Below, in pieces: positions 147 through 18,702 of a stretch of DNA of 35,508 nucleotides. The stretch covers positions 1 to 35,508 of the forward strand of contig JAMPFF010000030.1 in assembly GCA_023664605.1 (NCBI GenBank), given 5' to 3'. Each line of letters opens with the position of its first letter. Positions within the stretch are counted from its first letter, which is position 1. The notes beneath the pieces were generated by a model that was given only the letters and a program-made list of their open reading frames with translations, searched no databases and had not been told where the DNA came from. The translations under genes were made by a program, and so were the position numbers. The DNA comes from Clostridium sp. Its GTDB lineage: Bacteria > Bacillota > Clostridia > Lachnospirales > Lachnospiraceae.

Positions 147-1181
147 TTAAAAAATTTTAGAATATCTGCTTTCTTCTTTCGTATCCGCCTCCATTTGCAC
201 CGCCTCTTGCAGTAAAGAAGTGAAAAATTCATCTATATACGCAAAGGAGTTATACATCCCCGCAGGCGGCCACTCTGTTTCAGGCGCAATCGTCATATTG
301 GAATCATTGACCGTAAATTTCCCGGTGTCTTTGTCATCAAAACGCTCCTCAAAAGAAGCCGTGACATAGCGCACACAGCCTTGGATATCATAATCATCAA
401 GCGTATAGCCCACAAATTCCGCCTGTATATGGTCTGTCAGTTTAAGGCCCACACAGACTCTGCATGTAAGATTCGGATATTCTTCCGGACTGATATGCCA
501 AAGATAAGAATATAAGTATAATTCCCCCGAAGCATCCCCCTGTTCCTCCATGCGGTACCGTGCAAACTGCAATTCTGACGCCTGTGTCGGATAATTTTGT
601 TCCACATACGAGGTAATTTTTTCTCTATAATCAGACCAGTCAGGGATGCCTGCCGAAAGTTCTTTTTTCTTATCCTGCACCAGACAGGCAACCGCTCCCT
701 CTCCGGACATGACAAAATTACCAAACGCGTCTCCCGACTGCGCTATGCCGGTTGTCCAGCCGTAGGGTATATCCATTGCATATTTTCCCATCTGTATGCC
801 GCCGGAGCGCATACCGTCTTCATGGGCATAACGGATATAGCCTGTTTTCGCTATTTTAAGATTCATTCCTGGATAAATCAAATCCGGATTTTCTATGATA
901 TCCCGATTGGCGTCCGCCAGTTCCACATAAGCATTCCCGTCTCCCAACTGCTCTTTTGCAATTTTCCAAAGACTGTCGCCGTCAAGCACCGTATAATCTT
1001 CCAAAACTTCCGTCAGGGTCATATACGCTCCGTCCTGTTCCTGTCCATCCGCATCTGCCTCATAGATAAAAGCATACTGCCCTGCCGCCAACGCATCCAC
1101 ACAGGGCGTTGCGCTTACCAGGATTGCCGCCCCCAGCAGCATCATCCCCGTTTTCTTTTTCAATCGTAATCCCATCCCCAT
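147..1181 (-). CDS. Secreted LysM-domain protein
   Basis: The 344-residue product has a signal peptide: basic residues RLKKK at 6-10, a hydrophobic stretch at about 13-24, and a likely cleavage after the alanines near 29-33. A LysM domain spans about 63-110 (YTVLDGDSLWKIAKEQLG to YPGMNLKI), the usual peptidoglycan- or chitin-binding fold. The remaining ~230 residues match no family I can name. They look like a globular extracellular domain rich in Tyr and acidic residues. The product is probably secreted and wall-associated. Its start overlaps the end of the upstream RsiV-like gene by about 22 bases, which suggests translational coupling in a two-gene operon. The AGGAG box sits about 13 bases before the first ATG, so the ATG two codons later cannot be excluded as the start. 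No catalytic motif was seen. Confidence 0.8.
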   Translation of the reverse strand: MGMGLRLKKKTGMMLLGAAILVSATPCVDALAAGQYAFIYEADADGQEQDGAYMTLTEVLEDYTVLDGDSLWKIAKEQLGDGNAYVELADANRDIIENPDLIYPGMNLKIAKTGYIRYAHEDGMRSGGIQMGKYAMDIPYGWTTGIAQSGDAFGNFVMSGEGAVACLVQDKKKELSAGIPDWSDYREKITSYVEQNYPTQASELQFARYRMEEQGDASGELYLYSYLWHISPEEYPNLTCRVCVGLKLTDHIQAEFVGYTLDDYDIQGCVRYVTASFEERFDDKDTGKFTVNDSNMTIAPETEWPPAGMYNSFAYIDEFFTSLLQEAVQMEADTKEESRYSKIF

Positions 1182-2137
1182 ACCGACGCTTGTTCTCCTA
1201 ACCAGATATTCTCCGCTTTATTTTCGCATGGAAGCACTTCCCCTACAGATTCGGATTTTTCATATTTATCCCAAAAATCGCTCTGCTTTTTAAACGCTTC
1301 CAATTCCTCTACGCTAAAGCGCGTATAGATGCTGCGGTTTAAAGGCTCGTATGTAATAGCATAATCCAACACCGGGTCGAGCGCAATCCCGATGACGAAG
1401 TCCTTATCCTCTGTTATATAGAAGAAAGGGGTACAGAAATAATTTTCGTTGATTTCCTCATCCGATTGTAAAAACCAGGATAACACAAGGTCTATATTTT
1501 CATCATCCGCATATTCGGTATTTTCTTCATCACTAAGAAGTTTATCCCAAAATATGACAAAATCCCTGTTAATCTCTATAATATCTTCCAGCCGATAGCT
1601 TTGTCCGGTGAGCAAATCCACTGTAAGCGCCCTTTCCGTTCCGTTCGTCATCCATACGGGATTGCCGGCGCTGTAGTATTCCCGATAGTCCACGCTCATA
1701 AGGTACTGGCTGTGATAAGTCACCTCACAGTTGACGTCGCTGGCAAAAATAGAAAAATGTTCCTCCTGAAATGCCTTTACTTCATCGGACGGCTCTAAAT
1801 GCCAATAGATTACCCTGTCCATGGCGGTATCATATAAAAGTTGGTTTAACGGGGTCTGCACCTCTTCGTCTATGCCGCTTATCTGCGGATATTCCACCGT
1901 CAAAACATCCCAGTAGTCGTACTCTTCCGAGTATTCAACGTAGTATTGTTCCTTTTGTACGGTGTAATCCTCATAGCCTTTCGGTGAAGAATGATAAAAG
2001 ATGAGAGCTATGACGACGGCTGCCGCTGCCAGCAGTATGATTAAAAATATGATTAGAAATATTCGTTTTCTATTATTCTTGGGAGGTTCCGGTATCTGAT
2101 GTTCGTATTCCTGTTGATATGTTTCTCTTTCGTCCAT
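1160..2137 (-). CDS. Single-pass membrane protein with RsiV-like (DUF4163/DUF3298) extracellular domain
   Basis: The 325-residue product has a short cytoplasmic tail, a membrane segment at about 25-48 (IFLIIFLIILLAAAAVVIAL) and a long extracytoplasmic domain. The domain shows the pattern of the DUF4163/DUF3298 pair found in RsiV and PdaC: YPQISG, then a predicted helix with LNQLLYD, a beta-rich CEVTYHSQYLMSVDYREYY stretch, and DLLTGQSYRLEDII. In RsiV this domain binds lysozyme, but RsiV also has an anti-sigma N terminus, and none is seen here. The start at 2137 was chosen because AAAAGGAG lies 9 bases upstream. A longer open frame to 2233 runs into the palindromic element and has no ribosome site. 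It is the first gene of an operon with the LysM gene, so an envelope-stress or wall-sensing role is plausible but inferred. Confidence 0.7.
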   Translation of the reverse strand: MDERETYQQEYEHQIPEPPKNNRKRIFLIIFLIILLAAAAVVIALIFYHSSPKGYEDYTVQKEQYYVEYSEEYDYWDVLTVEYPQISGIDEEVQTPLNQLLYDTAMDRVIYWHLEPSDEVKAFQEEHFSIFASDVNCEVTYHSQYLMSVDYREYYSAGNPVWMTNGTERALTVDLLTGQSYRLEDIIEINRDFVIFWDKLLSDEENTEYADDENIDLVLSWFLQSDEEINENYFCTPFFYITEDKDFVIGIALDPVLDYAITYEPLNRSIYTRFSVEELEAFKKQSDFWDKYEKSESVGEVLPCENKAENIWLGEQASVWGWDYD

Positions 2138-2210
2138 GTCAGGGGTCTCCTTTTGGTATGTGGCGATTGTACAGTCGGGGTTTACGAAATGTCTAAATGG
2201 AATAATGTAT

Positions 2211-2341
2211 GGACAACATATACAATCCAACACGGGTCGCTTTCGCTACGGTTCAACCGTAACGGCGCATAAGACGCTAAAAAACAGCGTCTAAACGCCG
2301 ACGGTCTCACAGTACCCGCTTATGGATTGTATATGTTGTCC
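2211..2341 (-). repeat. 131-bp palindromic structured element, copy A
   Basis: The ends are perfect 18-base inverted repeats (GGACAACATATACAATCC and its complement). Read on the minus strand, the inside can fold into a CGGGT/ACCCG helix enclosing two arms. One arm is CCGT-CGGCG paired with CGCCG-TT-ACGG and capped by GACGCT/AGCGTC. The other is a short hairpin closed by a GAAA tetraloop. Copy B at 6327-6458 is nearly identical inside but has compensating changes in the terminal stem and in the GAAA hairpin. Copy A lies between a candidate promoter (2414-2442) and the RsiV-like gene, in the sense orientation of that transcript, so it would be part of its leader. It could be a structured leader RNA or a MITE-like element. 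Confidence 0.85.
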
Positions 2342-2413
2342 AACGCCAAAGATTATCAAAGGCGTTTCGTAAATCCCGGCTGTAACAATCATCTATATTT
2401 TCGGATTCTTACT

Positions 2414-2442
2414 ATTATATATAGTATACATGGGAAAAGCAT
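2414..2442 (-). promoter_or_regulatory. Candidate activator-dependent promoter for the RsiV-like/LysM operon
   Basis: On the minus strand a perfect TATAAT lies at 2414-2419. Seventeen bases upstream the hexamer is ATGCTT, which is a poor -35. The four 11-base repeats begin exactly there, as expected if a bound activator replaces the -35 contact. The transcript would run through element A into the gene starting at 2137. Confidence 0.4.
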
Positions 2443-2482
2443 CATTTTTGCATCATACTTGTATCATAGTTGCATCATTTTG
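2439..2482. repeat. Four tandem 11-bp direct repeats (GCATCAT-box array)
   Basis: Four exact 11-base units follow one another: GCATCATTTTT, GCATCATACTT, GTATCATAGTT and GCATCATTTTG. The first seven bases are conserved (one change, C to T, in unit 3) and the last four vary. An 11-base period is about one helical turn, so a protein would see all boxes on one face of the DNA. This is typical of direct-repeat sites for OmpR-type or similar regulators. The array abuts a TATAAT on the minus strand. Confidence 0.7.
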
Positions 2483-2556
2483 GGCAGTTATCCTAATATT
2501 TTTGGTGAAAGGCATCAGAAAAGGACGCCTGATAAAGACGCCCTTAACTGAGAAAA

Positions 2557-4548
2557 TTATTGAAGAAGCTGTAAAATCATTGCAGAGGACTGGTTTGCCT
2601 GACTCGACATACTTGCTCCCGCTTGTAATAAGATATTTTGATTGGAATATTCCACCATTGACTTTGCAATATCCGTATCACGGATAACGGATTCCGATGC
2701 GGTGGTATTTTCATACTTATTCTGATTATTATTATAAGCATGCTCCAAGCGGTTCTGCTCCGCACCCAGCGTCGTCCGGCATTTTGAAACATAAGACAGT
2801 GCATCTCTAATTATACGATTGCTGTCAGGTTCATAAACGACTGTGCGGATAATATCTCCCTCTCCCGGAGTCGGTCTGTTTCTATTGTATACCTTTTTCT
2901 GATAAGATGATGGGGGATGCACTTTCTCCTTTTCATTCGTTTCCCATTGCTGTTCCCATTTCACAAATTCACCGTTTTGATTAAAAATCGGTTTATTTGA
3001 AATCAATTTAGCTTCCCGAACGGTCTCCGTATATCCCGGAACATTTACAGTTTCATAATGGAAATCATTTTCCCATGCCTCCAAATCCGCCTTATAGGAA
3101 TCACTATAGGATTCTTTCACGTTATAGCGCGCTACATCATATCCTGTAATGCCTAACATTTCTGTTGTCAGCAATGGTAAATCAATGGGAATCTTATCCG
3201 GCGACTGCGCGCTGCAGACAATCCATAACGGCTTCTCCATCTCCACTTCCGTTCCGGGTACCAGATAGGAATAGGGTATTTCAATATCGCATATGGCTGC
3301 AATATTCACCAAAGCATCCGCTCCATTAGAAGACAATTTTAACTGGTCACGATAATCATATACGATAATATCATATGCGCCGTCCGTAAGCGCCCTATCA
3401 AAATGGTCTTCATAAGCCGTCACGTTAGTAAGCATCCTATATGTCTGGACGCACAACTCTTTTGCAATTTTATCCGCCAACGCCAGCGTCTGGTCCTTTT
3501 TATCAGCATCATTCAACGCCGTATTTGTTTCATGCTCTTTCACTAATTCTTCAATCGCCTTAAAGCAATTCACTTTTTCTCCTGCGTCGTTCTCAACTTT
3601 CAAGTCAGAGACATTCAAGTAAGTGCCTATTTCAATCTCTTTGCCCTGACTGTTTATATAATGTTTCGGTTTTGCTGAAAAACCGTTGACTTGCCCGAAA
3701 AATCCTATCCCATAATATGTATCATCACAGGTGCCGCACGGTACTCCGACTGCACATCCTATTAAATTCATCACATTTTCATAAAGCGTTGCCGCATCGT
3801 CACACTTTGCCAATTCTGAAAAACTTATTTTTGCCGTCTGGTTGTCGTTCAGCGTATCTGTCCATGGACCTCCGTATGTATATACATCCCATAAAGTGCC
3901 TACATCCGCCGGACCGTAATATTCTCCTGCTGTGATATGTTCCTCGGCGTCAAACGCCGTTGCCTTATACATAAACCTGCTGGTATCCTGTGTCAATCCG
4001 GTATAGGAATGCAGCTCCAGTTTATCGTCGATTCCAGCCTTGAACCATTCCGGCACTTCACGCTCAATAGTCTCCTCCGTATACCCGGTATAAGTCATAT
4101 CCGCCTCAATCTTTACCATTTCGGTCGGATTTCCTTTTAACAGCTTTATTTCATTAAAAGTAGTGGTGTCGGCAATTCTTTCGATTTCCTTAATCAGGTG
4201 CGTAACTTCTCCCTGAATATATTCCCTGTCTTCTTGTGTATTCGTATCATTATACGCTTTTACAGACAATTCATTTATGCGCTGTAAGATGTCAACAACT
4301 TCTCCTATTGCGCCGTCTGCCACCTGAACAAGTGAAATACCATCCTGAATATTGTCAGACCCTTGTTTCAATCCCCTAATCTGCCTGCGCATTTTTTCAG
4401 AAATAGCAAGACTTGCCGCATCATCCGCCGCACGATTAATCTTATAGCCGGACGAAAGTTTTTCTACATTTTTCGCATTCTTTCTTGTATTTACTTTATA
4501 TTGTCTGCCGGCATTCCACGCGAGCATATTAGTTTGAACTGACATCAT
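2557..4548 (-). CDS. Flagellin with large cysteine-containing central domain
   Basis: The N-terminal ~145 residues are classic flagellin D0/D1 (NMLAWNAGRQY, EKLSSGYKINRAADDAASLA, MRRQIRGL, NIQDGISLVQVADGA). The C-terminal ~85 residues are the matching D1/D0 half (GAEQNRLEHAYNN, ESVIRDTDIAKSMVEYS, ILLQAGASMSSQANQ). These halves coil together in the filament core; export is by the flagellar type III apparatus. The ~430-residue middle is a surface-exposed variable domain. It holds several cysteines, including a CAVGVPCGTCDD cluster, and two related strings (YTGYTEETIEREVPEW and VPGYTETVREAKLIS). It has no HExxH motif, so it is not a flagellinolysin. At about 663 residues it is much longer than a minimal flagellin (~270). 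The start at 4548 was chosen for its GGAG box 9 bases upstream and family alignment; an ATG at 4563 lacks a good site. Confidence 0.9.
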   Translation of the reverse strand: MMSVQTNMLAWNAGRQYKVNTRKNAKNVEKLSSGYKINRAADDAASLAISEKMRRQIRGLKQGSDNIQDGISLVQVADGAIGEVVDILQRINELSVKAYNDTNTQEDREYIQGEVTHLIKEIERIADTTTFNEIKLLKGNPTEMVKIEADMTYTGYTEETIEREVPEWFKAGIDDKLELHSYTGLTQDTSRFMYKATAFDAEEHITAGEYYGPADVGTLWDVYTYGGPWTDTLNDNQTAKISFSELAKCDDAATLYENVMNLIGCAVGVPCGTCDDTYYGIGFFGQVNGFSAKPKHYINSQGKEIEIGTYLNVSDLKVENDAGEKVNCFKAIEELVKEHETNTALNDADKKDQTLALADKIAKELCVQTYRMLTNVTAYEDHFDRALTDGAYDIIVYDYRDQLKLSSNGADALVNIAAICDIEIPYSYLVPGTEVEMEKPLWIVCSAQSPDKIPIDLPLLTTEMLGITGYDVARYNVKESYSDSYKADLEAWENDFHYETVNVPGYTETVREAKLISNKPIFNQNGEFVKWEQQWETNEKEKVHPPSSYQKKVYNRNRPTPGEGDIIRTVVYEPDSNRIIRDALSYVSKCRTTLGAEQNRLEHAYNNNQNKYENTTASESVIRDTDIAKSMVEYSNQNILLQAGASMSSQANQSSAMILQLLQ

Positions 4549-4593
4549 ACCTGCATTCTCCATTTGTTTCTCAAGTTCTTCTTTCTGATTCTT

Positions 4594-4621
4594 ATATCGT
4601 CCATATCATTCCAAAACTTTA
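4594..4621 (-). promoter_or_regulatory. Sigma-28 (SigD/FliA) promoter of the first flagellin
   Basis: On the minus strand this reads TAAA (4618-4621), 16 bases, then GACGATAT (4594-4601), close to the sigma-28 consensus TAAA-N15-GCCGATAA. The same arrangement precedes the second flagellin, with near-identical sequence around it. Sigma-28 promoters drive late flagellar genes, which fits flagellin. Confidence 0.75.
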
Positions 4622-4632
4622 GTTATAACTAA
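4619..4632. promoter_or_regulatory. 14-bp palindrome overlapping the flagellin -35, copy 1
   Basis: TTAGTTATAACTAA is a perfect palindrome that overlaps the TAAA element of the sigma-28 promoter. The identical 14 bases occur at the same place in the second flagellin promoter. This is a candidate operator for a dimeric regulator, by position and symmetry only. Confidence 0.5.
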
Positions 4633-4688
4633 TATTTTTTTGAAAAATTATTTGTAATACATCATTATTTTGAGAGAAATACAACATT

Positions 4689-4720
4689 AAAAAAAAGATG
4701 CCTCATAGAAACATCTTTTT
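4689..4720 (-). terminator. Rho-independent terminator of the second flagellin
   Basis: Read on the minus strand after the stop of the 4745-6115 gene, AAAAGATG pairs with CATCTTTT across an 11-base loop and runs straight into a row of T residues. The stem is A+T-rich but perfect. Confidence 0.75.
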
Positions 4721-4744
4721 CAAGGAAAACTATTGAATTGATAA

Positions 4745-6115
4745 TTAAGACAGTAAACTTAAAATATATTGCTGACTTTGATTTGCCTGCACTAGCATTG
4801 ACTGTCCCGCCTGTGCTAAAATACTTCCATTAGAAAACAAAACCATCTCCTTTGCCACATCAACATCACGGATACGTGATTCAGCATCAGTGGTATTTTC
4901 CGCAATATTTTCATTAATATTTATAGCATGTTCTAAGCGGTTCTGCTGTGCGCCAAAAACCGTACGATATTTGCTAATAGTTTCAAGTGCGCCTTTAATA
5001 GAATTAATTGCATTTCCTGCATTTTCCATAGAAGATACATCAAGATTGTCTATGCCAATCCCTTTTGCCGTAGCATTGACTAAATTAATGTACATGCCTA
5101 CTCCTGGCTCGGTAGCCATGTGAATCCAGAGGTCAGACTGCATATTATTGTTTCCGGCATTTGCTGTTCCATCATTCGGCAGTTTAAAATATTCCGTATC
5201 ATCAGACCTCACCCATCCACATCCACTACCATTTCCATCTGGACTTCTCCAATACCAAAACTCATCACAAGAATAGGAAACTACATGATGTAATTTAAAA
5301 TAAATACTTCTATCTGTATCTATTGCCCAGTCCACTATTGATACTCCCCCATATCCATGTTTGGTGCTCTGGTTTTTTGCCTCACTCTCCAATACCTGTT
5401 TATCTAATTCCTCTAAACTACAATGTTGTCTTGAACCACTACCAATCCATGACCAGCCGCCTTTTCCCAGCTCTTCGCTTATATGCCAAATTACCATCTC
5501 AGGCCATGTTGAATTTGGGTCTAAATAAGCATCATACAGCATGTAGCTGCCTTTCACAGTATCACCTACATTATAGGTTACTCCATCCCAAATAATCGGT
5601 TGACCCGTTGTATTCACTACCGAGAATTTTCTTATCATCAGATATGGCGGCAACTTTGCATTCGCTATATCTTCAATTCCTCCAGTTTTAGTCGCCCCCA
5701 ATAGCGGATAAATCTCCTCATTAAACGTCGTCTGATTCGCAATCCTGTCTACCTCTTCTGTCAGTGCATCTATCTCAGCCTGAATATACGACCTATCTTC
5801 CTGAGAATTTGTATCATTGCCTGCTTTCACAGATAATTCATTCATTCGTTGTAAAATGTCATGCACTTCATTCAATGCCCCATCCGCCACTTGGCATAAT
5901 GATATGCCATCCTGAATATTTTCTGCCGCTTTTCGCAAACCTCTTATCTGCCTGCGCATCTTCTCTGCAATAGCCAAACCCGCTGCATCATCTGCGGCAC
6001 GGTTTATTTTATAACCCGAAGATAATTTTTCCGTAGATTTAGCCTTTTTCCTATTGACAATATTAAACTGTCGATTAGCATTCATAGCAGATAAATTATG
6101 CGTTATAACATTCAT
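4745..6115 (-). CDS. Flagellin with intermediate-size central domain
   Basis: The 456-residue product has the typical flagellin N terminus (MNVITHNLSAMNANRQF, EKLSSGYKINRAADDAAGLA, NIQDGISLCQVADGAL) and C terminus (FGAQQNRLEHAININ, DAESRIRDVDVAKEMV, SILAQAGQSMLVQANQ). The ~210-residue middle is Trp- and Tyr-rich and shares no obvious similarity with the middle of the neighbouring flagellin, although the ends are closely alike. GAGGAAAC lies about 9 bases before the ATG. It has its own sigma-28 promoter and terminator, so the two flagellins are separate transcription units. About 110 bases upstream of both genes are nearly the same, indicating an old duplication that included the promoter, followed by exchange or divergence of the exposed domain. 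No other flagellar gene is in the window. Confidence 0.92.
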   Translation of the reverse strand: MNVITHNLSAMNANRQFNIVNRKKAKSTEKLSSGYKINRAADDAAGLAIAEKMRRQIRGLRKAAENIQDGISLCQVADGALNEVHDILQRMNELSVKAGNDTNSQEDRSYIQAEIDALTEEVDRIANQTTFNEEIYPLLGATKTGGIEDIANAKLPPYLMIRKFSVVNTTGQPIIWDGVTYNVGDTVKGSYMLYDAYLDPNSTWPEMVIWHISEELGKGGWSWIGSGSRQHCSLEELDKQVLESEAKNQSTKHGYGGVSIVDWAIDTDRSIYFKLHHVVSYSCDEFWYWRSPDGNGSGCGWVRSDDTEYFKLPNDGTANAGNNNMQSDLWIHMATEPGVGMYINLVNATAKGIGIDNLDVSSMENAGNAINSIKGALETISKYRTVFGAQQNRLEHAININENIAENTTDAESRIRDVDVAKEMVLFSNGSILAQAGQSMLVQANQSQQYILSLLS

Positions 6116-6165
6116 CTTATAGTTTCCTCTTTCATTATTATTTTTAATTATCGTTTCCGACTCTT

Positions 6166-6193
6166 ATATCGTCCATATTATTTCAAAACTTTA
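6166..6193 (-). promoter_or_regulatory. Sigma-28 (SigD/FliA) promoter of the second flagellin
   Basis: On the minus strand TAAA (6190-6193) is followed after 16 bases by GACGATAT (6166-6173). Spacing and sequence match the promoter of the other flagellin, including the overlapping palindrome. Confidence 0.75.
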
Positions 6194-6204
6194 GTTATAA
6201 CTAA
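6191..6204. promoter_or_regulatory. 14-bp palindrome overlapping the flagellin -35, copy 2
   Basis: This is the same perfect palindrome (TTAGTTATAACTAA) as at 4619-4632, in the same register with the -35 element. The nearby XRE-type regulator gene at 6529 is a possible, untested binder. Confidence 0.5.
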
Positions 6205-6326
6205 TATTTTAAACATTTTTATTTGCTATGCATCATTATTCTAAAAGAAATACAACATTAAAATTAGAACATACTATTAGAAAATTGCAGATGATTGCGA
6301 AATGGCTACCATAACACCTGGCATAG

Positions 6327-6458
6327 GGGTAACATATACACTCCATAAGCGGGTACTGTGAAACCGTCGGCGTTTAGACGCTGTCCTTTAGCGTCTTATG
6401 CGCCGCTACGGTTGAACTGTAACGAAAGTGGACCCGTGTTGGAGTGTATATGTTACCC
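6327..6458 (+). repeat. 132-bp palindromic structured element, copy B
   Basis: The ends are perfect 18-base inverted repeats (GGGTAACATATACACTCC and its complement). The inside is nearly the same as copy A in the opposite chromosomal orientation. Compared with A there are three base changes in the left arm, each matched by a complementary change in the right arm, and one paired change (G-C to A-T) in the GAAA-tetraloop hairpin. It sits 70 bases before the XRE regulator and is in the sense orientation of that gene, so like copy A it may be a transcribed leader. Confidence 0.85.
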
Positions 6459-6528
6459 ACAAGCAGCTTTATTCAGCCGTTGCACAATCACTTAGCGAAA
6501 AATTGTAAAGAAAGGAGTCTCTGAATAT

Positions 6529-6867
6529 ATGAAAGATTTAGATTTCAAAGTAATCGGTTCCAAAATTAAAGAACGCAGAAAATCCCTTGGTATCACCCAG
6601 GAATTTATTGCGGAACAGTTAGACGTAAATCCCAGTCATATCAGTAATATTGAATGCGGCAGAGCCAATCCCTCCCTTACCGCGCTTATTAAAATTGCCA
6701 ATACACTGCATTGCAGCGTTGACTGTTTTATCAGTGAAGAATATACCTATCAACTGAATACTGAAAAAAGAGACTCTATCGAGGATATGATTTTAGAAAA
6801 ATTAAGATATTGTAATGCCGAAACCAAAAATAAAGTCCTACAGATTATCGATATTCTTTATAAGTAA
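6529..6867 (+). CDS. XRE-family helix-turn-helix regulator
   Basis: The 112-residue product has an HTH_3 (Cro/CI-like) domain at about 9-65 (IGSKIKERRKSLGITQEFIAEQLDVNPSHISNIECGRANPSLTALIKIA). A short helical C-terminal tail follows that may serve for dimer formation. It is preceded by a strong AAAGGAG box. It is divergent from the flagellin genes and stands alone between element copies B and C. Position makes it a candidate regulator of the flagellins or of itself, but no target is shown by the sequence. The family includes both phage-like repressors and chromosomal regulators; nothing else phage-like is nearby. Confidence 0.88.
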   Translation: MKDLDFKVIGSKIKERRKSLGITQEFIAEQLDVNPSHISNIECGRANPSLTALIKIANTLHCSVDCFISEEYTYQLNTEKRDSIEDMILEKLRYCNAETKNKVLQIIDILYK

Positions 6868-6885
6868 GTATGAAACGCCAAAACA

Positions 6886-6944
6886 TTAGCCGGGGGTAAT
6901 ATATACAGTATCCGCGTTGGATTGTATATGTTATCCCCAGCTAA
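6886..6944 (+). repeat. Shortened copy C of the palindromic element
   Basis: The left arm GGGGTAATATATACAGTATCC and right arm GGATTGTATATGTTATCCCC resemble the ends of copies A and B. Only a few bases (GCGTT, part of the right inner boundary) remain between them, so about 85 internal bases are gone. Outer bases TTAGC/GCTAA extend the pairing. It begins 19 bases after the XRE stop codon and may act as a transcript-end hairpin, though there is no T tract. Confidence 0.65.
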
Positions 6945-9117: not shown

Positions 9118-9204
9118 TATCATATTTATCCTTGAAACATAGGCTATGGATGATAGGCATTTCGCAATCACCCAAACGTACACCACAACGAAAGGAGCAT
9201 CACT

Positions 9205-10125
9205 ATGACTGCAAAAAATCTGATTGAAACCAATAACCTGACCAAACAATACGGCGGCATCCGCAGTGTCAACGCCCTGCATATGGAGGTTCCACAGGGT
9301 GTTGTCTATGGATTTTTAGGTCCCAACGGCGCCGGAAAATCCACGACGCTGAAAATGATTCTGGGGCTTGCCAGACCCACCGCCGGTTCCATTACGCTGT
9401 TCGGCATCCCCGTCAATGAAAAGAACCGTATGAAGCTGCTTGCCAATACCGGCTCTTTGATTGAATCGCCCAGCTATTACGGGCATCTGACGGGAGAAGA
9501 AAACCTGCATATCCTGCAGACGCTCAAAGGATGTCCCAAGAAAGATATCGACGAGGTTTTGCATATTGTGCGTTTAAGCGACGCCCGCCATAAGAAAGTC
9601 GCCCACTATTCGCTCGGCATGAAGCAGCGTTTGGGGCTGGCGGCGGCGTTACTCGGCTTTCCGAAACTGCTTATTTTAGACGAACCCACCAACGGGCTTG
9701 ACCCTGCCGGTATACAGGAAATGCGCGAACTTATCTGCACGCTGCCGTCCACTTACGGCATGACGGTCGTGGTTTCCTCCCATCTTCTCAGTGAAATCGA
9801 CCAGATGGCGGATTATGTCGGCATCATCCGTAAAGGCGAACTGGTCTATCAGGATACGCTGGAACTGCTTCATTCCCATGCAAAACAGCAGATTGCCCTG
9901 CGTACCGATAAACCGGCAACGGCTGTCGCGCTGCTTCATCAGGACGGCATCGAGGTGGAAAAGGAAGATGACTATCTGCTGATTCCGATGATAGAGGACT
10001 CCTATATCGCCCATCTTTGCAAACGGCTGATAGAACAGGATATTTCTTTATACCGTATTGAAAAAAGGGAAAACAGTCTGGAGGATATCTTCTTATCCCT
10101 GACCGGAAAGGAGACAAGTCTATGA
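9205..10125 (+). CDS. ABC transporter ATPase, lantibiotic-immunity type (LanF/CprA-like)
   Basis: The 306-residue product has Walker A GPNGAGKST (39-47), a Q-loop region near SLIESPSYYGHLTGEEN, signature YSLGMKQRLGLA (about 135-146), Walker B LLILDEPTNGLDP and an H-loop VVSSHLLSEI. This order and the YSLGMKQRLG signature match the DrrA/LanF group of exporters that protect Gram-positive bacteria from lantibiotics and related peptides. It starts after AAAGGAG and ends in an ATGA overlap with the first permease gene, so the two are translated together. It is divergent from a regulator/kinase pair that probably controls it. No lantibiotic precursor or modification enzyme is nearby, so defence against outside peptides is more likely than self-immunity. 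Confidence 0.9.
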   Translation: MTAKNLIETNNLTKQYGGIRSVNALHMEVPQGVVYGFLGPNGAGKSTTLKMILGLARPTAGSITLFGIPVNEKNRMKLLANTGSLIESPSYYGHLTGEENLHILQTLKGCPKKDIDEVLHIVRLSDARHKKVAHYSLGMKQRLGLAAALLGFPKLLILDEPTNGLDPAGIQEMRELICTLPSTYGMTVVVSSHLLSEIDQMADYVGIIRKGELVYQDTLELLHSHAKQQIALRTDKPATAVALLHQDGIEVEKEDDYLLIPMIEDSYIAHLCKRLIEQDISLYRIEKRENSLEDIFLSLTGKETSL

Positions 10126-18080: not shown

Positions 18081-18094
18081 GACTCTTTCTCCAT

Positions 18095-18197
18095 TCTTTT
18101 TAATGATTCTTTTTATTAATTTTTTTATCGATTTTTTTTATTAATTCTTTTTATTGACTCTTTTACCTAATTCGTTTTATTGATTCATTTTCTATTT
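18095..18197. repeat. T-rich imperfect repeats between genes
   Basis: The gap upstream of the ketopantoate-reductase-like gene is a run of loosely repeated strings such as ATTCTTTTTATTAA, ATTCTTTTTATTGA and ATTCGTTTTATTGA. The spacing is irregular. On the minus strand it reads as A-rich, which could serve as an UP-element or a terminator-like spacer. Nothing else was seen in it. Confidence 0.5.
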
Positions 18198-18198
18198 T

Positions 18199-18702
18199 TT
18201 ATATATCCTGCTTCCCATTATTTCGTTCCCAAGCGATTTCTTTCTCATGACTTCGGTGTATGCCGATATGCCCTATCCCCAGGATAATAACCGCTATGAT
18301 AAGCGGCAGGTTTTTCCCATATACCCCCAGCAGGAAAAACGCCAGCACCGGAAGCGTCGCTCCGGCAAGCGGAACTCCCGCAAAACTGCAATAAAAATCC
18401 GCCATCGTCCTTTCGCTTTTAAAATACCGCACCCAGTAACCCTCATAAAAAAGCATACACACAAAAGAAACCGCCAGCCATAACGACCACGGTGACATTC
18501 CTTTTATATTAAAATCCGAAAATATCAAGGCAAAACAGCACACCAGAACTTCTCCGGCTCTTTCCAAGATAAGCAGTATTTTGTTTTCATGGATAACATA
18601 TTTTTCATAATCTTTCGGCTGCTTTTTGGACCACATACTATTGGGGATAAAAAGCATCAGTAAATATAACAGTCCTATATAAGAAAAACCAAAATGTAAC
18701 AT
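18199..18702 (-). CDS. Uncharacterised five-helix membrane protein
   Basis: The product is about 167 residues from 18702, a start chosen for the AGGA box 9 bases upstream and to avoid overlap with the preceding gene. It has about five hydrophobic segments (GFSYIGLLYLLMLFIPNSMW, VLVCCFALIFSDF, LWLAVSFVCMLFYEGYWVRYF, LAGATLPVLAFFLLGVYG, LPLIIAVIILGIGHIGIH). Strings such as PNSMWSKKQPKDYEKYVIHENKIL and GHIGIHRSHEKE recur in a Clostridial family without known function. It follows the acidic protein gene by 25 bases and is probably in the same operon. Confidence 0.72.
   Translation of the reverse strand: MLHFGFSYIGLLYLLMLFIPNSMWSKKQPKDYEKYVIHENKILLILERAGEVLVCCFALIFSDFNIKGMSPWSLWLAVSFVCMLFYEGYWVRYFKSERTMADFYCSFAGVPLAGATLPVLAFFLLGVYGKNLPLIIAVIILGIGHIGIHRSHEKEIAWERNNGKQDI

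Follow-up and report, generated by a model that had tools for sequence, protein, structure and literature searches.

A probable miniature transposable element with a predicted structured RNA core in gene leaders of a Clostridium species

The stretch of DNA considered here (hereafter the window) comprises 35,508 nt of contig JAMPFF010000030.1 from Clostridium sp., a member of the Lachnospiraceae (assembly GCA_023664605.1), and contains two copies, A and B, of a strongly palindromic repeat. An initial annotation described a family of ~131-bp elements, and suggested two possible natures for it: a structured RNA not described before, or a MITE-like element spreading as a leader. In the main both proposals hold: the former on account of a covarying fold that matches no Rfam family, the latter on account of target duplications, an autonomous partner, and sites upstream of ribosome-binding sites. 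We consider it probable that A and B are copies of a miniature inverted-repeat transposable element (MITE) inserted in mRNA leaders, and that this MITE contains a conserved structured RNA. The relevant features are listed below. Bit scores are those of R1, a covariance model of 132 positions and 51 pairs built from 17 copies in the window's own genome (G000); A and B are both among these 17, and their scores are those of training members. R1 E-values are rough throughout.

2177..2379 (approximate), minus strand: copy A, whole element (outer terminal repeats, spacer, P1 and core), from copies aligned with their flanks
2211..2341, minus strand: copy A, P1 and structured core (model positions 1-132), R1 148.6 bits, E 4.6e-34
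6289..6494, plus strand: copy B, whole element with outer terminal repeats, from the alignment and the arms
6327..6458, plus strand: copy B, P1 and structured core, R1 152.5 bits, E 4.7e-35
6349..6437 (approximate), plus strand: copy B, structured core P2-P7, from fold and conservation
6887..6942, plus strand: copy C, core-deleted remnant with P1-like arms and a short joining loop, from sequence and fold
1163..2137, minus strand: gene downstream of A, 325 amino acids, ATG at 2137, start chosen by its Shine-Dalgarno sequence
2147..2152, minus strand: Shine-Dalgarno sequence AAGGAG of this gene, from sequence
6511..6517, plus strand: Shine-Dalgarno sequence AAAGGAG, 16 nt past the end of B, from sequence
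6529..6867, plus strand: XRE-type regulator gene downstream of B, Pfam HTH_3
9156..9173, minus strand: solo outer terminal repeat, 31 nt before an ATG at 9205, from sequence

The 131-bp repeat is real, but it is merely the inner part of a unit of ~205 bp, and the 18-19-base repeats that had been taken for its termini are an inner palindrome, P1. The length of the unit comes from an alignment of 19 own-genome copies with 90-nt flanks. Most of these have a second inverted repeat, AGGTGATTGCGAAACGCC, ~37 nt outside P1, and several have direct repeats of ~10 nt immediately outside the outer inverted repeat. The consensus of this outer terminal repeat (terminal inverted repeat 1, TIR1) is TAGGTRATTGCGAAAC. 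A and B have diverged forms of it: one outer arm of A lies at 2361-2373 with two mismatches and the opposite arm is more diverged, while those of B lie at 6289-6304 (two mismatches) and 6478-6493 (three mismatches). On the plus strand A and B stand in opposite orientation (inverted pair I1, 98 nt, 93% complementary). A blastn comparison of B with G000 gave 23 matches, two of which are B's own arms read on the opposite strand.

A and B each lie in the sense 5' leader of a gene, as first described, although both orientations are found across copies. Copy B ends at 6494 and is followed by the Shine-Dalgarno sequence from 6511 and the XRE gene's ATG at 6529. For the gene downstream of A, the list of open reading frames has its start at an upstream GTG (2233); its product gave no match in Pfam or NCBIfam. 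Copy C had been called an internal-deletion form, and it does resemble P1-like arms without the core (-30 kcal/mol, z -5.45), but it was not reported by R1 in a search of its own genome at E up to 1.

On their common strand each has a predicted fold of -74.1 kcal/mol (z -10.65 for A and -10.21 for B), and no dinucleotide shuffle folds as well as the original (0 of 200 for each copy). The opposite strand folds more weakly, at -61.3 kcal/mol for A and -63.7 kcal/mol for B. The consensus opens with the outer, variable P1 of 19 pairs. An internal loop separates it from P2 and P3, and a tandem G-A motif leads on to P4; a short bulge then precedes P5, and a further internal loop precedes the hairpins P6 and P7, the latter of two pairs and ending in a tetraloop. 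In the 17 own-genome copies 94.5% of cells are paired.

The paired base changes noticed between A and B are real and recur across the family. They were assessed in a set of 113 distinct copies from other genera, none of which was used for R1. Here 93.8% of cells pair, as against 60.0% in shuffled alignments and 29-45% with slid partners; both sides change in 50 of the 51 pairs (44.9 shuffled, 24-31 slid), and the covariation score is 0.838 (0.204 shuffled, 0.065-0.116 slid). The alignment was fitted to R1, which favours the structure; the slid controls are nevertheless low. Further pair types number 186, barely above the 176.5 of the shuffled alignments and reached by 10 of 500 of these. As expected of a structured RNA, covariation exceeds both kinds of control. 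The loop of P7 is a GNRA tetraloop in 117 of 118 rows (81 of 92 by a cruder text match on another set), and the GAAA loop that was first pointed out is indeed there, as one member of this set. Fifteen unpaired columns of the core are conserved at 80% or more.

Some relatives are elaborated beside P6. Locus L253 of genome G169 has several extra hairpins of unrelated sequence at 140-520 and is almost fully paired (381 nt including flanks, -190.5 kcal/mol), while L252, L254 and L260 have about one extra hairpin each. Two cores in opposite orientation, 116-453 bp apart, occur in each of L152 (527-1072), L154 (579-1070), L155 (596-972) and L157 (638-1356), with short tandem repeats between the two cores of L154.

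The initial annotation had suggested a search with a covariance model, and a model from own-genome copies does find many more copies, whose stems covary, both within the genus and across the family. At E up to 1, R1 finds 35 places in G000. Of these, 27 have E below 1e-8 (including the 17 that built the model), five are weak reverse-strand echoes of places already counted, and three are fragments. Matches are present in 72 of 77 genomes of the genus at 1e-3 (44 candidates scored per genome) and, at 1e-4, in 91 of 299 sampled genomes of the Lachnospiraceae, or 90 of 298 genera; in the family search 11 candidates were scored per genome, and copy numbers are therefore lower bounds. Wider samples gave matches in 55 of 392 genomes of the order, every listed matching genome being in the same family, and in 4 of 398 genomes of the phylum, all four again in that family. 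Two core patterns had no exact match in viral contigs, and blastn with one copy (L078) found no plasmid record and a single phage record, matched over 44 nt. Neither A and B nor the 13 relatives searched gave a match that attained the threshold of any Rfam 15 family. A match of mir-578 to A was rejected, since it scores 26.6 bits against a threshold of 98 and rests on the palindrome. At a relaxed threshold the loci of A, B and these relatives gave nothing on the element, and two matches elsewhere in L115 and L111. Open-licence literature, judged by title and the opening of the abstract, yielded no description of the element. The element appears to represent a large class of structured RNA, so far undescribed, within a single clostridial family.

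The case for a mobile element rests on its ends and their surroundings, which were compared over 201 copies after removal of those with less than 60 nt of flank or with duplicate flanks. (Four reverse-strand echoes among 96 matches were also left out, and duplicate copies were dropped for the 113-copy covariation set and for the set of 196 used below.) Good TIR1 ends are present on both sides of 46 copies. Of the 201 copies, 18 are bordered by exact direct repeats of 10-14 bp at matching distances, as against 1.0 expected when flanks are mispaired. All of the 18 except L205 (17 copies) belong to the 46 with good ends, and a 41-base repeat at L210 was excluded from the count as a tandem duplication. 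Inward-facing pairs of ends ~190 bases apart occur in G263 and G169. A pair 4.2 kb apart in G263 (L252) was considered as a transposon and rejected, since it contains unrelated genes together with one additional copy of the element.

The same end is found on an insertion sequence (IS) of 1796 bp in a viral contig, L290, which encodes a transposase of 485 amino acids. In Pfam the transposase matches DUF772 (48.2 bits, cut-off 23.1), with DDE_Tnp_1_6 at 20.7 bits, below the cut-off of 25.1. The pairing of these two domains is a mark of the IS1182 family; against the NCBIfam IS1182 model NF033551 the protein scores 68.4 bits, below the cut-off of 270, and so falls outside the family by this measure. 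Homologues of the transposase are encoded in 12 of the 77 congeneric genomes (E up to 1e-30). Eight IS copies with both ends, including L290, are 1757-1796 bp long; one end matches TAGGTAATTGCGAAAC exactly, and at the opposite end there are two or three mismatches. Four of the eight have exact target duplications (L334, L336, L337 and L346: 13, 10, 12 and 14 bp), L290 has a 10-bp duplication offset by one base, and the other three are without a clear duplication. None of the 10 IS loci searched contains the structured core, and MITE copy number, judged by eye over the genus, bears no clear relation to the presence of the IS. At ~205 bp the element is too small to encode a transposase, its ends (TAGGTRATTGCGAAAC, strictly in 46 of 201 copies) are shared with an autonomous element, and it is flanked by target site duplications (exact in 18 of 201). 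To judge from these comparisons, the end-bearing version is a MITE, since its outer repeats and 10-14-bp duplications match those of an autonomous DUF772/DDE IS.

Copies with good ends tend to lie at a particular distance from a start codon. These 46 copies have 92 flanks, and in 44 of the flanks a start codon accompanied by a Shine-Dalgarno-like sequence occurs within 200 nt. The distance from the element is 24-37 nt for 32 of these starts, no two of which belong to the same copy. The 310 flanks of the other 155 copies, measured from a fixed offset of 38 nt, have 110 detected starts, 20 of them at this distance (Fisher p 4.6e-10 for 32/44 vs 20/110). The contrast is conservative, because the latter set includes decayed copies such as A and B. 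By a crude match, the Shine-Dalgarno sequence is 14-21 nt from the end of the element in 31 of the 32. In six of the eight IS copies a start lies 26-34 nt from one end. Orientation is mixed: 12 of the 32 well-spaced copies are sense and 20 antisense. An antisense bias among tandem contexts (39 to 15 in the first 92 copies) shrank to 69 to 44 in the 201-copy set and was not used. The solo outer repeat at 9156-9173 is probably an insertion remnant, since its spacing from the start codon equals that of whole elements.

Other congeneric genomes encode 23 orthologues of the gene that follows A (E up to 1e-25), and the element is absent from the 260-nt leaders examined; R1 found nothing in these leaders and a single match over the loci, placed elsewhere in L323. 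In the G037 orthologue (94% protein identity) a -10 box lies almost directly before the Shine-Dalgarno sequence. This leader may have lost sequence, since that of the G039 orthologue has an ordinary length without the element. The four other orthologues of the XRE gene have no R1 match at any locus, and the sequences on either side of B align to an element-free leader in L306. In genus g207, all four G431 copies compared are occupied at the orthologous site in G282 (1.2 Mb of G282), which suggests that copies can be old and stable. The sites of L095-L098 are likewise occupied in four congeners, and three distant G282 sites without an R1 match (flanks 65-74% identical) are too diverged to read. 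Two ideas on the origin of P1, that its arms are inverted copies of the target or that the core entered existing hairpins, were set aside: no usable empty site was found, and the close orthologues compared are all occupied.

P1 is free in sequence, and it is replaced as a whole. Between two copies of G357 identity is 99% in the core and 23% in the outer P1, and yet the copies pair at 11 and 10 of 11 positions (L243 was left out of comparisons of this type because of a one-base alignment shift). At an orthologous site, L224 and L380 have close cores and flanks and a largely replaced P1; at another, a multi-base difference leaves a broken arm in L225 and a perfect one in G282. Paired P1 changes separate the orthologous copies L095-L098. 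L010 and L135, also orthologous, differ at 10 bases of the element, including a paired change, while the shown flanks are identical and those over 700 nt are 96% and 99% identical; fast change and gene conversion between copies are alternative explanations proposed for this. Either selection on pairing or hairpin-templated correction can produce the pairing of the P1 arms, and it may partly be palindrome correction. The compensatory changes of P1, read at first as a sign of selection for folding, need not imply it, given the replacement of arms and the correction-like difference between orthologues.

Pair types give a partial answer as to which nucleic acid is under selection. At the paired sites of 196 distinct copies, G-U to A-C counts are 133:48 in P1, 102:6 in P2, 31:21 in P3, 24:81 in P4, 32:19 in P5, 177:2 in P6 and 7:0 in P7. 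One constant pair contributes 167 of the 177 in P6, and one pair 73 of the 102 in P2; we think that the deficit in P4 comes partly from subfamilies in another register. The excess of G-U over A-C was therefore not accepted as proof of the RNA strand: it is true of the sum, but it is dominated by single pairs and reversed in P4, and it is moderate evidence only. Mainly on account of its loops, the core looks like RNA.

The core is also found in other frames. A second end type, CACGGAAATCAATTTTCAG, frames a diverged core in five copies of G000 (209-222 bp), four of which have direct repeats of 8-9 bp; some repeats of this length would arise by chance as well. These five are among seven G000 copies with a diverged core (L066-L072). 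No transposon with these ends was found. L412, tried as a TIR2 partner, was rejected: it is the sole exact viral match, has no mate, and lies inside a coding frame among phage-like genes. Since the same core occurs in other palindromic frames, in other genera as well as within the CACGGAAATCAATTTTCAG ends, it probably predates any single set of transposon ends.

Elsewhere in the window, two neighbouring genes between A and B (2557-4563 and 4745-6115), which we take to resemble flagellin paralogues, have mutually repeated upstream regions (4561-4638 and 6133-6210, 82% identical). AT-rich direct repeats with a spacing of 12-13 bases lie at 18086-18200, and an S10-Clostridia ribosomal protein leader (Rfam RF03136, 93.7 bits) at 12-93 on the minus strand; this leader is a pointer to the Clostridia.

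A mechanism can be proposed for the probable MITE. The IS of ~1.76 kb, with its DUF772/DDE transposase distantly related to IS1182, would move the MITE in trans, as the shared ends and duplications suggest. The MITE would insert between promoter and ribosome-binding site and so join the mRNA leader, where the RNA would fold into a P1 rod tipped by a multi-helix core (GNRA hairpin, tandem G-A motif, fixed internal loops). Folding may make leader insertions tolerable, with ~200 nt of foreign RNA packed away and the ribosome-binding site left free, and the conserved loops of the core would be held by tertiary contact or a binding partner.

Several observations weigh against this interpretation. 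Neither A nor B belongs to the 46 copies with good ends, their own ends being diverged, and 155 of the 201 copies lack good ends on both sides. The target duplication of B is imperfect, and that of A, if it ever existed, has decayed. The IS was not found in G000, which is 95.5% complete, and the near-identical G037 leader looks shortened and does not provide a clean empty site. The script that locates start codons picks the nearest one, and the pattern of insertion could have been sharpened by selection against insertions elsewhere; targeting is the more economical explanation, since the IS shows the same insertion point.

It is rather unlikely that the repeat is a DNA palindrome only, with paired changes that arise by template switching and arm correction and not by selection on RNA. 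The turnover of a P1 that stays palindromic (the G357 pair; L224 and L380), the difference in L225 that breaks a pairing intact in its orthologue, and the scarcity of G-U pairs in P1 (3.6% of cells) would all fit such an origin. The 15 conserved unpaired columns of the core and its nearly invariant GNRA loop (117 of 118) would not, nor would the unequal foldability of the two strands (-74.1 and -74.1 vs -63.7 and -61.3 kcal/mol) or the excess of G-U over A-C even in P1 (133 to 48). More improbable still is a core that is an autonomous selfish RNA or ribozyme module entering existing palindromes, to which the MITE ends would be one frame among several. The same core does occur within IS-like ends, within CACGGAAATCAATTTTCAG ends and, in near-identical form, within locus-specific palindromes, but fast in-place turnover of arms can also create locus-specific arms, the four G431 sites are all occupied in G282 and none is empty, and no known ribozyme family was matched in Rfam.

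A host cis-regulatory RNA, a riboswitch-like leader selected for the downstream genes, is very improbable. A and B do lie within leaders, and occupancy is conserved for the four G431 copies in G282 and for L095-L098 in four congeners; against this, the element occurs in either orientation (tandem contexts: 44 sense, 69 antisense), copies are flanked by target duplications, and the orthologous leaders of A's and B's genes are without it. Tentatively, one may go beyond the MITE reading and suppose that the IS and MITE home to DNA just upstream of the Shine-Dalgarno sequence, and that the RNA module of the MITE is independent and family-wide, perhaps a ribozyme or a ligand for some unknown factor, and passes from one transposon frame to another; this we regard as possible, though doubtful.

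If targeting is true, a single insertion puts a folded RNA in a leader and leaves promoter and ribosome-binding site untouched, and such elements could rewire leaders at scale. What emerges is an apparent structured-RNA class in 90 of 298 sampled genera, one version of which is tied to a transposon with a striking insertion point, and which offers many natural replicates for separating RNA selection from the correction of DNA palindromes.

Comparison with known systems shows both likenesses and differences. Like curated Rfam RNAs it has covarying helices and tetraloops; unlike them, it is reached at threshold by no Rfam family. Its partner resembles the IS1182 family in its similarity to NCBIfam NF033551 and in its DUF772 domain, and differs from it in scoring 68.4 bits against a cut-off of 270, by which test it is not a member; unlike the MITE, this IS1182-like partner carries no RNA core in the 10 loci searched. 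ERIC, YPAL, Bcr1 and other stem-loop families are similar in being mostly intergenic palindromic repeats of ~100-200 bp with a common predicted fold. They differ in that ERIC is described as a single long stem-loop; the survey that treats them covers 40 genomes, and its text contains neither 'Roseburia' nor 'Lachnospira' (PMC2267715). The BOX, RUP and SPRITE repeats of Streptococcus pneumoniae are interspersed and strongly folding, are held to be non-autonomous, have IS-like terminal repeats, and are co-transcribed with genes (PMC3049150). The passages on them do not mention a family-wide GNRA core or a fixed Shine-Dalgarno spacing (PMC3049150). They differ from the present element in being pneumococcal and, in the case of BOX, modular (boxA-B-C), and they resemble it as interspersed folding repeats with IS-like terminal repeats (PMC3049150).

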